Assembly: GCF_001563265.1 (NCBI RefSeq)
Contig: NZ_CP005083.1
Span: forward strand, 1,305,001 to 1,369,000
Reading direction: 5' to 3'
Source of the DNA: Sphingobium sp. TKS
GTDB lineage: Bacteria; Pseudomonadota; Alphaproteobacteria; Sphingomonadales; Sphingomonadaceae
Length of the DNA: 64,000 nt
Shown here: positions 30,381-35,841 of the stretch, one piece after another
Position numbering within the stretch: the stretch's first letter is position 1
Layout of the letters: each line of letters opens with the position of its first letter
Translations under genes and position numbers: made by a program
Notes under the pieces: model-generated
What the model saw: only the letters and a program-made list of their open reading frames with translations
What the model was told of the DNA's origin: nothing
Databases searched by the model: none

Positions 30381-30844
30381 GCGTGGCGGAGTTCGAACTG
30401 TCGGTGACTTGCCATATCGCCGCCCCGCGCGGGATCGTATGGAAAGTGTGGACGGACCTGAAGGATGAATGGTTCTGCCCCAAGCCGTGGCGCGCCGAGG
30501 TGATAGAGGAGGATCTGCGGCCCGGCGGGCGAAGCGCGGTGCGCATGTTCGGTCCCGATGGCGAGGATACGGGGCCGATGGAAGGGATCATCCTGGAGGT
30601 GGTGCCGCAGGAGAAGGTCGTGACGACCGATGCCTATGCTTCGGGATGGATTCCGCAAACGCCCTTCATGACGGCGATCTGGAGCTTTGCCGATGAGGGG
30701 GAAGGGACGCGCTTTACCGCGACCGCGCGCCATTGGGATGCCGAGGCGCTGGAGAAGCACAAGGAAATGGGATTTCATCCGGGCTGGGACCAGATGGTGG
30801 CGCAGTTCAAGGCGTTGTGCGAGATATCTGCCGCCAGTGCCTGA
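30377..30844 (+). CDS. SRPBCC/AHSA1 family protein
   Basis: A 155-residue START-like protein (activator of Hsp90 ATPase homologue 1-like). It begins VTCHIAAPRGIVWKVWTDL, and shows LRPGGRSAVRMFGPDGEDT and a C-terminal helix containing HPGWDQMVAQFKALCE, all typical. These proteins bind hydrophobic ligands in a deep pocket. It is the last gene of the HxlR/VOC cluster and overlaps the previous stop by 4 nt. Confidence 0.9.
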   Translation: MSVAEFELSVTCHIAAPRGIVWKVWTDLKDEWFCPKPWRAEVIEEDLRPGGRSAVRMFGPDGEDTGPMEGIILEVVPQEKVVTTDAYASGWIPQTPFMTAIWSFADEGEGTRFTATARHWDAEALEKHKEMGFHPGWDQMVAQFKALCEISAASA

Positions 30845-30855
30845 AACGAAATGAC

Positions 30856-30892
30856 TAAAAAAAGGGCGTCCGATATGCTGGACGCCCTTTCC
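30856..30892. terminator. Bidirectional terminator
   Basis: Stem AAAGGGCGTCC / GGACGCCCTTT (30861-30871 and 30880-30890) with an 8-nt loop, an A-run on the left and T-run on the right. It serves the plus-strand VOC operon and the minus-strand aminotransferase gene. Confidence 0.85.
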
Positions 30893-30912
30893 TGTTTAGC
30901 GCAGCGGGCCGA

Positions 30913-32082
30913 TCAGGCCTTGTAAACCTTCTCCACGGCGGCGCAGAACTTGGCCATGTCGTCCGCCGACCCGACGGTGACGCGTGAGACGGTGGGCCAG
31001 ATCGGCCAGGCGCGGCCGATCTGCACCTTTTCCGGCGTGGCCAGGAGGGCGGTCTGAATCTCCTTGGCGGTCTTGGTCTTCCAGTTCACCATGAACATAT
31101 TGGCCTGGCTGCCGGGGTGCACTTCGATCCCCTTCTTGGTGAGCCAGGCAATGGTTTCTTCACGGTTTGCGATCATCTCTGCGCGGCGGGCCTTGATGAG
31201 CCCGGCTTCGGGATAGACCGCATTGCCGCAGGCCATGGCCGTGATCGACAGGCCGCCCGCCGTGGGTCCGAACAGGCCGATGCGCTTCTGGATTTCCGGG
31301 TCCGCGAAGGTAAGCCCCAGGCGCACGCCCGCCATGCCGAACAGCTTCGAGAAGGTCCGCATGACGATCAGATCCTTGCGGCCCGCCACCAGCTTCGCCG
31401 CGCTCTGCGCTTCGGAGAAGTGGATATAGGCTTCGTCGACCAGCAGGATCGAATCTGTGGGTTTGTTGGCGAGCAGCCATTCGATGTCGGCCAGCGGCGT
31501 CACGGTGCCGGTCGGATTATTGGGCGAGCAGATATAGTAGAGGCCCGCATTGGGGTTGGCGGCCAGCATCGCCTTGACGTCATGGCCCTTGCCGATGGCC
31601 TGCGGCGCCTTGGCAATGGGCGCCTTCAGATAATCGGCTGTGCGCCATGCGGATTCGAAGGTCGGATCGGCGGTGACGAGACCCTTGGTGGGCGAGCAGA
31701 AAGCCGCGACCGTGCTGACCAGCGGACCGCCCGAACCCGGCCAGAGCATGACGTGCGATTCCGGAATGCCCTCCACCTTGGCGACGGTGGCGATCAGGTC
31801 GCCCTTGTAATTGTCCGGGTCGTACCAGTTGCCGACCGCAGCGGCCTTGGCGGCGGCCTGGACGCCCGGTTCGAAGGGGCCGGTCCAGCATTCGTTGGAG
31901 CCGATGCGGACCGCGCCCTTGATGCCGCGAGCGGCCTGCTGCTGCGCGAAGGCAGGCTGGATCAGCAGGTTGCCGGCTGCTGCCCCAGCCGCCATCAGGG
32001 CGGAAATCTTGCCGATCGTGCGGCGGGAATAGCCCCGTTCGATCAGGTCTTCGCGGGCGTGTTTTTCCAACATCATGGTCAT
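30913..32082 (-). CDS. Tat-exported histidinol-phosphate aminotransferase-like PLP enzyme (copy A)
   Basis: A 389-residue fold-type I aminotransferase of the HisC-like family: substrate/cofactor segments IGSNECWTGPF, ICSPNNPTGT, LLVDEAYIHF and the Schiff-base lysine in TFSKLFGMAGVRLG. Unusually, the N-terminus carries a twin-arginine signal: a charged stretch, SRRTIGK, a hydrophobic core ISALMAAGAAAG and an AFA cleavage site before QQQ. It should therefore be folded with PLP in the cytoplasm and exported. ATG 32082 has AAGGGGA upstream. A terminator separates it from its paralogue, so it has its own promoter. Substrate unknown. Confidence 0.87.
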   Translation of the reverse strand: MTMMLEKHAREDLIERGYSRRTIGKISALMAAGAAAGNLLIQPAFAQQQAARGIKGAVRIGSNECWTGPFEPGVQAAAKAAAVGNWYDPDNYKGDLIATVAKVEGIPESHVMLWPGSGGPLVSTVAAFCSPTKGLVTADPTFESAWRTADYLKAPIAKAPQAIGKGHDVKAMLAANPNAGLYYICSPNNPTGTVTPLADIEWLLANKPTDSILLVDEAYIHFSEAQSAAKLVAGRKDLIVMRTFSKLFGMAGVRLGLTFADPEIQKRIGLFGPTAGGLSITAMACGNAVYPEAGLIKARRAEMIANREETIAWLTKKGIEVHPGSQANMFMVNWKTKTAKEIQTALLATPEKVQIGRAWPIWPTVSRVTVGSADDMAKFCAAVEKVYKA

Positions 32083-32140
32083 GTCGTCTGTTCCCCTTGT
32101 TGTTCCACAACTGCGCATATTCCACGGGGAGAAACGAAAA

Positions 32141-32169
32141 GGGCGGCGCATTTCCACAATGCGCCGCCC
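32141..32169 (-). terminator. Rho-independent terminator between the two aminotransferases
   Basis: A perfect 12-bp stem (32141-32152 with 32158-32169) with a 5-nt loop. On the minus strand the stem is followed by TTTTCGTTT, so it ends the transcript of copy B before copy A. Confidence 0.85.
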
Positions 32170-32256
32170 CGGATTCTTGAAATTTTATGCGTTACCGAGC
32201 GTTCAGAAGTCGCCTGGACAGCGACGGCTCGCGGAATGCGGCAAAAAGCTAACCGA

Positions 32257-33414
32257 TCAGGCCTTCCAGACCTTGTCGATGGCATCGCAGAAGGCCTTCA
32301 TTTCTTCCGCGGAGCCGACCGACACGCGGGACACATTGGGCCAGATCGGCCAGTTGCGCCCGATCTGCACCTTTTCGGCCAGGATCGCGGCCTGCATGTC
32401 CTTGGCGGGCTTGCCCCAATCGACCATGAACATATTGGCCTGGCTGCCGGGAATGACCTTGATCCCCTTCTTCTTGAGATGGGTGATGGCCATTTCGCGG
32501 GCGGCGACCATTTCGGCGCGGCGTTGCTTGATCAGATCGGCCTGGGCCACCGACACCGTGCCGCAGGCGACGGCGGTCATCGGCAGCATCGCCGTCACCT
32601 GTCCCCCGTCATAGCGCATCATCTTTTCCATGATCGCGGGGCTGGAGAAGGTGAGGCCCAGCCGCATGCCCGCCATGCCGAACAATTTGGAGAAGGTGCG
32701 CAGGATGAGGACATCATCGCGGGTCGCGGCCATCTTCGCCGCGTTCGGGCCGTCAAACCAGTGGATATAGGCTTCATCGACGACCAGGATCGCGTCCTTG
32801 GGCTTGTTGTCGGCCAGCCACTGGATATCGGCCAGCGGCGTCATGGTGCCGGTCGGGTTGTTGGGCGAGCAGATATAATAGACGCCCGCCTTGGGATCGG
32901 CCGCCAGCATCGCCTTCACGTCATGGGCATAATCCTTGGTGAGCGGCACCTTCGTCACCTTCGCGCCCAGCCAGTCGCCCGTGCGCCAGATCGCTTCATA
33001 GGCGGGGTTGCCGGTGACGATGCCCCGCGTGGGCGAGGCATAGGCGACGGCGACGCGGCTCAGCGGGTCGCTGGAGCCGGGCCAGGCGGTGATGCGGTCC
33101 GCCGGGATGCCTTCGACGGCGGCGACTGCGGCGAACAGCTTGGCATGTTCGTCATTGGGTTCGTAGCGATTGCCCTCCTGCACCAGATTGAACGCGGCTT
33201 GCGCGGCGACCGGGAAAGGGCCGGTCCAGCATTCATTGGCGCCGATGCGGACGGCGCCCTCGACCGGCTTGGCGGCTTGCTGCGCCATGGCGCCGGTGAC
33301 GCGCAGGGCGGCGGCGCCCGCACCCAGCAAGGCCGCGACCTTGCCCATCTGGCGGCGTGAATAGCCCCGGTCGATCAGATCCTGTTCGAACGCCTTATTG
33401 TCGATTTCTGCCAT
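32257..33414 (-). CDS. Tat-exported histidinol-phosphate aminotransferase-like PLP enzyme (copy B)
   Basis: A 385-residue paralogue of the adjacent copy, sharing landmarks IGANECWTGPF, ICSPNNPTGTMTPLADI, VVDEAYIHWFDG and TFSKLFGMAGMRLG with its PLP lysine. It too starts with a twin-arginine signal: DRGYSRRQMGK, a hydrophobic core VAALLGAGAAAL and an AMA cleavage site before QQA. The two N-termini share the RGYSRR core, so the export signal was present before duplication. ATG 33414 has GGGAGA upstream. It is divergent from ptsP. No amino-acid biosynthesis genes are nearby; an extracytoplasmic role is inferred. Confidence 0.87.
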   Translation of the reverse strand: MAEIDNKAFEQDLIDRGYSRRQMGKVAALLGAGAAALRVTGAMAQQAAKPVEGAVRIGANECWTGPFPVAAQAAFNLVQEGNRYEPNDEHAKLFAAVAAVEGIPADRITAWPGSSDPLSRVAVAYASPTRGIVTGNPAYEAIWRTGDWLGAKVTKVPLTKDYAHDVKAMLAADPKAGVYYICSPNNPTGTMTPLADIQWLADNKPKDAILVVDEAYIHWFDGPNAAKMAATRDDVLILRTFSKLFGMAGMRLGLTFSSPAIMEKMMRYDGGQVTAMLPMTAVACGTVSVAQADLIKQRRAEMVAAREMAITHLKKKGIKVIPGSQANMFMVDWGKPAKDMQAAILAEKVQIGRNWPIWPNVSRVSVGSAEEMKAFCDAIDKVWKA

Positions 33415-33564
33415 ATGCTCGTCTCCCTGACTCGCTGACTTTTGGGATTTTACGGCTGTAAACGAAATCGCGGTCCATTTCCGCCATGCATAAGGCGGAA
33501 AATCCGCCGAAGCCGCACATATTCGCCTTGGAAAGCGGACGCGCGATCTGTTAGCGCTTGGCAC

Positions 33565-35841
33565 ATGCCCAGCACGCCCGCCGCCGCCGCCCGCCAGATC
33601 CTCATCCGCCTGCAGGAAGTCATGGCCGCGCGCACCAGTGCGCAGGCGAAGCTCAACAAGGTGGTCGAGATCATCGGGAAGTCGCTGTCGAGCGAGGTCT
33701 GCTCCATCTATCTGGTGCGCGAAGGGGTGCTGGAGCTGTTCGCGACGCGGGGATTGAAGCAGGAAGCCGTCCACGTCACCCGCATGGCGATGGGCGAAGG
33801 CCTGGTCGGCATGATCGCCACCAATGTCGAGACGCTCAACCTGGACGAAGCGGCATCGCATCCCGACTACAGCTATCGCCCGGAAACGGGGGAGGAACTG
33901 TTCCACAGCTTCGCGGGCGTGCCGATCGTGCGGCGGGAGCGGGCGATCGGCGTGCTTTGCGTCCAGCATGTCGAGCCGCGCCGTTATGAAGAGGTGGAGA
34001 TCGAGGCGCTCCAGACCGTGGCGATGGTGTTGTCCGAACTGATCGCCAATGCCGAACTGGCCGATGACGGCCCGGCGGATTCGCGGGTGCAGGATACGGG
34101 CACGTCGATCCTGCATGGGCTGCAACTGGTGATGGGCATGGCGCGGGGTCATGCGGTGTTCCACCAGCCGCGCGTGCATATCGAACATACCGTCGCGGAG
34201 GATACGGAAGCCGAACGCCAGCGCGTCATTTCCGCTTTCACCAAGATGCGCGAACAGATCGACCGGATGACCGGCACGGCCGAGTTCGGCACGGAGGGTG
34301 AGCATCAGGAGGTGCTCGAAACCTACAAGATGTTCGCCTATGATGAAGGCTGGGCGCGGCGGATCAACGAGGCGATCGACAGCGGCCTGACCGCCGAGGC
34401 GGCGATCGAGCGCGTGCAGCAGCGCACCCGCATGCGCATGCGGCAGATCGACGACCCGCTGCTCCAGGACCGGATGCACGATCTGGAGGATATGGCGAAC
34501 CGGCTGCTGCGCATCGTGTCGGGGCAGTTGGGGACGGCGGCGCAACTCGGTCTGCGGCAGGACGCCATCCTCATCGCGCGCAATCTGGGGCCGGCGGAAC
34601 TGCTGGAATATGACCGGCGGCGGCTGAAGGGCGTGATCCTGGAGGAAGGGTCGCTGACCGCCCATGTCACCATCGTCGCGCGGGCCATGGGCGTGCCGGT
34701 GCTGGGGCGCGTGCGGGATGTTCGTCACCTGCTGAATGAAGGCGACCTGATCCTGATGGATGTGGCCGACAACAATCTGCTGATCCGTCCGACGCCCGAC
34801 ATGGAAGAGGCGTTCGAGAACAAGCTGCATGTGACGCAAAAGCGCCGGGCCGAATTCGTCGCGATGCGCGACCTTCCGTCCGTCACCACCGACGGGCAGC
34901 GGATCGAGCTGATGGTCAATGCGGGGCTGCGGGAGGATGCGCAGGCGCTGGACATTGTCGGCGCGGACGGCATCGGCCTGTTCCGTACCGAGTTCCAGTT
35001 CCTCGTGTCCGCGACCCTGCCGCAGCGGGAAAAGCAGCAGCGGCTCTATCGCGATGTGCTGGACGCGGCGGGGGACAGGCCCGTGATCTTCCGTACGGTC
35101 GACATCGGCGGCGACAAGGCGCTGCCCTATATGCAGCGCGACGATGACGAGGAGTTGGAGGACAATCCCGCCATGGGCTGGCGCGCCTTGCGGCTGGCGC
35201 TGGACCGGGACGGGCTGATGAAGGCGCAGGCCCGCGCCCTGCTGGAGGCCGCGGCGGGCAAGATATTGTACGTGATGTTCCCGATGGTGTCCGAACCCTG
35301 GGAATATGATCAGGCACGGGCGTTGGTCGAGCATCAGCGCGAATGGCTGGTGGCGCAGAAGAAGAAACTGCCGGTCGCGATCCGCTATGGCGCGATGCTG
35401 GAGGTGCCGGCTCTGGCCGAGGTGTTGGATTTGCTGCTGCCCAAGCTGGATTTCCTCTCCATCGGCACCAACGACCTGACGCAGTTCCTGTTCGCTGCCG
35501 ACCGCGCGCATCCGCGCCTGGCGGAGCGCTATGACTGGCTCAGCATCGCCATATTGCGCTTCCTCGACCGCGTGGTGCGCGCCTGCGAGGCCTATGAGGT
35601 GCCGGTCGGCGTTTGCGGCGAAATGGGCGGGCGCACGCTGGAGGCGATGGCGCTGATCGGCCTGGGCGTACGGCGCCTGTCGATCACCCCCGCCTCGGTC
35701 GGGCCGGTCAAGGCGATGATCCGGACGCTCGACGCGGCGGAACTGTGCAAAGTCATGCGCGACCTGCTGGACAAGGGCGTTACGGATATTCGTTCGGCCC
35801 TGGTCGACTGGGCCAGCGAACATGCTATTGAATTGAATTAA
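33565..35841 (+). CDS. ptsP: Phosphoenolpyruvate-protein phosphotransferase PtsP (EI-Ntr)
   Basis: PtsP moves phosphate from PEP to NPr in the nitrogen-related PTS. The 758-residue protein has an N-terminal GAF domain (about 20-160), the phospho-histidine domain with SLTAHVTIVARA containing the active His, and the PEP-binding TIM barrel with GADGIGLFRTEF, FRTVDIGGDKALPY and GTNDLTQFLFAADR, ending near PVGVCGEMGG. The start at 33565 precedes the first conserved helix. It probably senses nitrogen through GAF-bound glutamine, which is family knowledge. Confidence 0.95.
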   Translation: MPSTPAAAARQILIRLQEVMAARTSAQAKLNKVVEIIGKSLSSEVCSIYLVREGVLELFATRGLKQEAVHVTRMAMGEGLVGMIATNVETLNLDEAASHPDYSYRPETGEELFHSFAGVPIVRRERAIGVLCVQHVEPRRYEEVEIEALQTVAMVLSELIANAELADDGPADSRVQDTGTSILHGLQLVMGMARGHAVFHQPRVHIEHTVAEDTEAERQRVISAFTKMREQIDRMTGTAEFGTEGEHQEVLETYKMFAYDEGWARRINEAIDSGLTAEAAIERVQQRTRMRMRQIDDPLLQDRMHDLEDMANRLLRIVSGQLGTAAQLGLRQDAILIARNLGPAELLEYDRRRLKGVILEEGSLTAHVTIVARAMGVPVLGRVRDVRHLLNEGDLILMDVADNNLLIRPTPDMEEAFENKLHVTQKRRAEFVAMRDLPSVTTDGQRIELMVNAGLREDAQALDIVGADGIGLFRTEFQFLVSATLPQREKQQRLYRDVLDAAGDRPVIFRTVDIGGDKALPYMQRDDDEELEDNPAMGWRALRLALDRDGLMKAQARALLEAAAGKILYVMFPMVSEPWEYDQARALVEHQREWLVAQKKKLPVAIRYGAMLEVPALAEVLDLLLPKLDFLSIGTNDLTQFLFAADRAHPRLAERYDWLSIAILRFLDRVVRACEAYEVPVGVCGEMGGRTLEAMALIGLGVRRLSITPASVGPVKAMIRTLDAAELCKVMRDLLDKGVTDIRSALVDWASEHAIELN

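Follow-up and report, generated by a model that had tools for sequence, protein, structure and literature searches.

Tat-signal PtaA-family aminotransferases of Sphingobium sp. TKS and a co-inherited TauE/SafE permease suggest periplasmic amino-acid transamination

A 64,000-nucleotide stretch of the Sphingobium sp. TKS genome (hereafter the window; NZ_CP005083.1, positions 1,305,001 to 1,369,000) was analysed, with a focus on two intact genes for HisC-like aminotransferases dependent on pyridoxal phosphate (PLP). They lie in tandem on the minus strand at window positions 30913–33414. As an earlier note on this DNA had described, both products carry a twin-arginine translocation (Tat) signal, an AxA cleavage site followed by Gln, and the PLP lysine within TFSKLFGMAG. 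We found that both belong to the family of PtaA, a pyoverdine-modifying enzyme, which has been little studied, and that a TauE/SafE permease is a genomic partner of such enzymes, which is new here: in Sphingobium, the enzymes and one permease come and go on the same branches though their loci are far apart. Our preferred reading, to which we give a probability of about 0.6, is that Tat-exported PtaA-family enzymes transaminate amino acids in the periplasm and are coupled to this permease, which would carry a keto acid.

The upstream copy, P0002 (385 residues; 32257–33414), starts with ...DRGYSRRQMGK, followed by an uncharged core and GAMA/QQ, where the slash marks the cleavage site. Its signal spans residues 1–44 (33283–33414), and the codon of its PLP lysine, K243, lies at 32686–32688. 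The downstream copy, P0001 (389 residues; 30913–32082), starts with ...ERGYSRRTIGK, followed by the core and PAFA/QQQ; the signal spans residues 1–46 (31945–32082) and the codon of K246 lies at 31345–31347. The two copies share 57% identity over 391 columns, and K243 was invariant across 44 aligned sequences. The immediate neighbours of the pair offered nothing relevant to its function; the labels SRPBCC, VOC, and HxlR for genes flanking it in the window were assigned by eye only.

Both copies exceeded the cut-off (444 bits) of the model PRK09105/NF006580, with 502.5 bits for P0001 and 510.9 bits for P0002. The model name, "pyridoxal phosphate-dependent aminotransferase", gives no substrate and no export. 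The class I/II aminotransferase domain PF00155 was present in the two copies with E values of 3.6e-32 and 1.9e-40. The class V domain PF00266 was not listed for P0001 and reached 21.3 bits in P0002 against a cut-off of 21.5, far under the 139.6 bits of PF00155. The best solved relatives (3LY1, 4WBT, and 1FG3) are named histidinol-phosphate aminotransferase. PF00155, the Schiff-base lysine, and the structure match all agree with a fold type I PLP aminotransferase of class I/II. Both copies were accordingly assigned to the PtaA family (PRK09105) of PLP aminotransferases, with transamination itself as their predicted activity.

The export signal is common to the whole family across several phyla. 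Orthologues lacking an N-terminal extension, which the earlier note had named as the case that would speak against it, did not emerge: an automatic test for two arginines followed by 12 uncharged residues detected the signal in 174 of 178 family reading frames, or 161 of 165 distinct proteins. Among the four misses, L063 and L072 show the motif on reading, and L100 and L113 start at the edge of a contig, so that their signal region lies outside the sequence. The 80 named loci were the best matches to a Caulobacter-like query in a contig scan with two peptide patterns, and the scan did not select for the signal because both patterns lie in the catalytic domain. Among these best 80 loci are representatives of Caulobacter, Xanthomonas, Pseudomonas, Acetobacteraceae, sphingomonads, and Acidobacteria, along with one planctomycete and one myxobacterial assembly. 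The signal thus belongs to the family as a whole and is no peculiarity of this pair, and its acquisition did not shortly precede the origin of the pair. By motif, both copies have the features of Tat substrates (twin arginine, uncharged core, AxA site, and conservation among orthologues), and a TatC gene is present in the genome. From these sequence features, we infer that P0001 and P0002 are extracytoplasmic, as had been proposed.

Inspection of the family's gene neighbourhoods, which the earlier note had recommended, revealed oxidase/RidA clusters and a TauE/SafE permease beside family members. Flank genes were called by a simple script that sometimes chose the wrong frame or strand; for the neighbours given here, identity was checked against reference proteins or family models. 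In 12 of the fetched loci, the permease (PF01925) was the neighbour of a HisC-like enzyme with a Tat signal. It directly adjoins a PRK09105 family member in L118, L131, L134, L150, L155, L158, L159, and L161; four of these eight loci also have a TonB receptor nearby, and two have an Lrp-like regulator. A second HisC-like family stands beside it in L179, L180, L181, and the Sphingobium locus L192. Eight of 99 family genomes hold a permease at least 58% identical to that of L118, and six of these eight permeases adjoin a Tat-signal HisC-like enzyme, three from PRK09105 and three from another family about 30% alike. The permease has no adjacent enzyme in G008 (L182) or in the genome of the window (G000; L177), where it lies at C1:994764–995570. 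No solved structure similar to the permease by sequence was found at E values up to 1.

Among 61 Sphingobium genomes, the enzyme family (E 1e-80) was present in 45 and absent in 16. The permease (E 1e-60) was found in 44 of the 45 genomes with the enzymes and in 0 of the 16 without. A ptsP tree of 59 genomes places changes in the enzymes on four branches and changes in the permease on five, with four branches in common. The tree omits G103, whose ptsP is in two pieces, and G123, in which no ptsP was found and which is 60% complete; both have enzyme and permease. One of the four shared changes sets off a deep group of 11 genomes that have neither gene, and the other three are losses within the positive group. 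When changes were placed at random with weights by branch length, four coincidences occurred in 0 of 200,000 trials and three or more in about 1 of 10,000. In G121, G107, G134, G131, and G157, the enzymes and the permease are gone and the flanks of both loci are kept, namely an SRPBCC-like gene and ptsP at the enzyme locus, and alanine dehydrogenase and a cardiolipin-synthase-like gene at the permease locus; in the flank searches, the ptsP reference served as a place marker only. In the genome of the window, roughly 340 kb separate the two loci, so linkage does not explain their co-inheritance.

What the permease transports is suggested by its neighbours. An alanine dehydrogenase above the curated cut-off stands beside it in 15 of 21 Sphingobium loci and is its commonest neighbour in the genus; an Lrp-like regulator, below the Lrp cut-off, is near in 6 of 20; and in L199 the permease adjoins a homogentisate 1,2-dioxygenase (677.8 bits, cut-off 510.75). 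These three neighbours support a keto acid as the transported species. Taken together, the proposed mechanism is as follows. Both enzymes would leave the cytoplasm folded and loaded with PLP via the Tat system. In the periplasm, they would transaminate free α-amino acids, or compounds with a free α-amino acid head. The permease in the inner membrane would carry an α-keto acid, either the acceptor outward or the product inward, and in Sphingobium the neighbouring alanine dehydrogenase may feed or drain that keto acid. A complete shuttle can also be imagined, in which a keto acid, for example pyruvate, leaves through the permease and serves as amino acceptor for transamination in the periplasm; alanine would come back, and alanine dehydrogenase would set the ammonium free. 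We regard this extension as doubtful; if true, it would account for the conversion of the amino form of the cofactor back to PLP outside the cytoplasm, and keto-acid transport would become a role of the permease family. The coupling to a permease makes the supply or removal of keto acids for periplasmic transaminases testable, specifically and cheaply.

Several observations weigh against this coupling or against a keto acid as its currency. The pair and the permease are unlinked in the genome of the window, and the promoter-like box found upstream of both enzyme genes (described below) was absent upstream of the permease in all loci searched (0 of 29). One genome with the enzymes, G152, had no detectable permease; its alanine dehydrogenase, the usual neighbour of the permease, was not found either, so that an assembly gap is possible. 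A sign test on independent pairs gave 4 of 4 in the same direction with p 0.125, and it could not reach 0.05 because there were only four such pairs. The check for empty sites covered 5 of the 16 genomes without the enzymes; the other 11 are more distant, and no SRPBCC flank was found in them. Alanine dehydrogenase is kept where the permease is lost. It was considered as a co-inherited partner in its own right and rejected, as it is present in 55 of the 61 genomes, including all five loss genomes. Furthermore, the TauE/SafE proteins known so far act on sulfite and sulfonates, which makes a substrate containing sulfur possible as well.

According to the review "The biosynthesis of pyoverdines" (PMC6206403), PtaA is Tat-exported with PLP, converts the glutamate form of pyoverdine to the α-ketoglutarate form, and also occurs in species without pyoverdine; PvdN, likewise Tat-exported with PLP, makes the succinamide side chain and is an enzyme separate from PtaA. 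Few PLP enzymes are known to act in the periplasm; PtaA and PvdN are those in the review, which also notes that the cofactor has to be regenerated there in some way and leaves the route open. The earlier note had chosen PvdN for comparison. This choice was not borne out: the nearest characterised relative is PtaA, which falls in the same NCBIfam subfamily as the pair. Like the pair, PtaA of Pseudomonas has NF006580 membership, a Tat signal, the PLP lysine, and a HisC-like sequence. With PvdN the pair shares Tat export with PLP, for the pair as judged by its sequence. PvdN has the class V aminotransferase fold, whereas the pair is of class I/II (PF00155).

The likeness to PtaA raises the question of whether the enzymes tailor a siderophore: like PtaA with pyoverdine, they would then act in the periplasm on a side chain of glutamate type in a peptide siderophore. 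Membership in the PtaA subfamily and the reported Tat export of PtaA would agree with such a role. However, the two copies reached 296.5 and 315.1 bits on the PtaA equivalog model NF051461 (cut-off 500 bits) and thus fell about 200 bits short, whereas a Pseudomonas poae member, to which P0002 is 39% identical, scored 672.5 bits on it and was also above the NF006580 cut-off. A nonribosomal peptide synthetase (NRPS) condensation domain was not found anywhere in the genome, against 4 positives among 14 control genomes, although NRPS-independent siderophores were not searched for; this makes pyoverdine tailoring very unlikely and agrees with the earlier statement that no siderophore genes are nearby. 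The occurrence of PtaA in species that make no pyoverdine also counts against this role. A further difference from PtaA is that the enzymes are kept as an old pair and co-inherited with a TauE/SafE permease. We therefore judge siderophore tailoring to be very unlikely, and most likely the pair resembles PtaA in chemistry and export, not in pyoverdine maturation. It is hardly credible that each copy is a plain histidinol-phosphate aminotransferase (HisC) that happens to have an N-terminal extension. The fold and PF00155 are those of HisC, and JGI records name several close relatives "histidinol-phosphate aminotransferase", but the two copies gave 168.5 and 196.7 bits on the curated hisC model TIGR01141 (cut-off 276.55), the signal is kept across distant groups, and the family is missing from 16 of 61 Sphingobium genomes. 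HisC proteins are not known to carry an export signal.

Two further explanations keep the chemistry in the periplasm and differ in the partner or the substrate. In one, a transaminase collects the amino groups released by a Tat-signal flavin adenine dinucleotide (FAD) L-amino-acid oxidase working with RidA and cytochrome c, and the acceptor keto acid is regenerated. Such an oxidase, whose nearest solved relative is 2JAE (295.8 bits), adjoins a family member in 7 of the best 80 named loci (L061, L063, L081, L083, L086, L116, and L131) in four different arrangements, accompanied by a secreted RidA, a cytochrome c, or an M19 dipeptidase. In Sphingobium, a third clade of the family lies within an oxidase/RidA/cytochrome c cluster (L138), and the genome of the window holds oxidase, RidA, and γ-glutamyltransferase in one cluster (L137). 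In a sample of 398 genomes across the phylum, the oxidase was present in 4 of the 14 genomes with the enzyme and in 23 of the remaining 384 (Fisher p 0.011, kinship ignored) against a background of at least 31 oxidase matches, and these counts are lower bounds because few candidates were scored per genome (4 and 3 in two scans). RidA has been described together with FAD amine oxidases (BMC Genomics 2015, PMC4433059), and a lao-cccA-ridA cluster has been described in Gluconacetobacter diazotrophicus (PMC5053998). That cluster resembles the pair in placing amino-acid chemistry with a predicted Tat-exported enzyme, and similar genes stand beside other family members in several lineages. It differs in encoding an oxidase and not a transaminase, and in being neither linked to nor co-inherited with the pair in the genus. 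Co-inheritance of the oxidase within Sphingobium was rejected (at a minimum identity of 50%, 12 of 45 genomes with the enzymes against 5 of 16 lacking them; at E 1e-60, 14 of 45 against 5 of 16), and enzyme and oxidase were never adjacent in the four phylum-sample genomes having both. Deamination with the oxidase is thus unlikely to be the role of the pair. The other explanation places the enzymes in sulfur amino-acid metabolism, with periplasmic transamination of cysteate or cysteine sulfinate and a permease that moves sulfite or sulfonate. PF01925 is indeed the sulfite exporter TauE/SafE family. On the other hand, the permease is most often accompanied by alanine dehydrogenase, and no search of its neighbours for sulfonate genes was made; in L199 it adjoins homogentisate 1,2-dioxygenase. 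On balance, a sulfur role seems distinctly improbable. A literature search, with subscription journals mostly outside it, returned nothing on the sphingomonad pair or on a link between transaminases and TauE.

The two copies appear to be old. In a quick tree of 128 rows, P0002 groups with single copies of Sphingopyxis and Sphingomonas (SH-aLRT 96) and P0001 with an Erythrobacteraceae copy and others (SH-aLRT 99); the two clades are separate, and each includes single-copy genes of other sphingomonad genera. The tree is most simply read as a split of the copies before the genus Sphingobium. The tandem pair lies on one contig in 34 of the 61 Sphingobium genomes, a count that excludes G117, where the two copies are on different contigs. 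In each of five fetched genomes with a single copy at this site, next to ptsP, that copy is of the P0001 type. When the orthologue groups were compared (30 and 31 rows plus the window's own sequences), columns fixed differently between them included R83 to W86 beside an invariant tyrosine and, after the GS motif, D116 to G119 and R120 to S123, together with a shortened YDGGQ loop. By alignment with E. coli HisC and its active-site positions, these differences presumably lie near the cofactor and substrate region. The two copies therefore probably differ in substrate, as far as sequence can indicate. Several extra family copies, in G110, G113, G125, G126, and G147, contain one in-frame stop codon and are probably decaying. 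Carriage on plasmids was considered and rejected, as a plasmid collection gave no match for the enzyme (E 1e-70) or the permease (E 1e-60).

The terminator that the earlier note had placed between the copies was confirmed as a recurrent element. On the minus strand at 32140–32170, a hairpin with a 13-pair stem followed by TTTCGTTT separates P0002 from P0001. It is the longest of four terminator-like matches within 30800–33650, where shuffled sequence yields as many (mean 2.7, sd 1.9, against 4). The hairpin is present in 25 of 29 distinct tandem loci (26 of 30 rows, among which the window locus is counted twice), and in L021–L023 its stem has only 7 pairs. The earlier note took the terminator to mean that each copy is expressed on its own, which is a possibility. 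In addition, a promoter-like box (GCGGAAATG...TTTCGTTT) was found by pattern match only upstream of P0002 at 33460–33484, and a similar one upstream of P0001 at 32132–32155, both on the minus strand. Their shared pattern, GGAAA[CT]-N11..13-CGT[CT], occurred in 22 of 32 rows on the P0002 side and 29 of 31 rows on the P0001 side; it matched five times in the whole window on both strands, and two of these matches are the boxes of the pair. A sigma-70-type promoter was not found for the pair. No sigma factor was assigned to the box, because its spacing is shorter than that of the box of EcfG, the general stress sigma factor. The P0001 box overlaps the 3' arm of the P0002 terminator hairpin (32132–32170), and the sequence of the loop and 3' arm is strongly conserved; it is possible that the hairpin doubles as a promoter or acts as a regulated attenuator. 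Upstream of the permease, another conserved stretch (CCGCCGAAGAGAGGCATGG and variants) was seen in L177, L185–L190, L195–L198, L200–L202, and other Sphingobium loci, and is possibly regulatory.

Some clusters of related enzymes were also observed. In the third Sphingobium clade (L116, L138, L139, and L141–L146), the family gene lies in a cluster resembling an operon, together with a TonB receptor and either one or two RidA genes; seven of the nine loci include a Tat-signal class V aminotransferase that resembles cysteine desulfurases, and three of the nine include the oxidase. The gene order in L138 is TonB receptor, RidA, oxidase, cytochrome c, transaminase, class V aminotransferase, and RidA. 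In the genome of the window, L137 (G000:C2:388500–408000) contains a TonB-receptor-like gene, a Tat-signal γ-glutamyltransferase, a PD40/amidohydrolase gene, a secreted RidA, and a Tat-signal L-amino-acid oxidase, which looks like a cluster for the periplasmic breakdown of amino acids or γ-glutamyl compounds. The same genome encodes a further Tat-signal HisC-like aminotransferase below the PRK09105 cut-off, P0123 (L178:8124–9236; G000:C1 about 2212200), whose gene directly follows a TonB-dependent-receptor-like gene.

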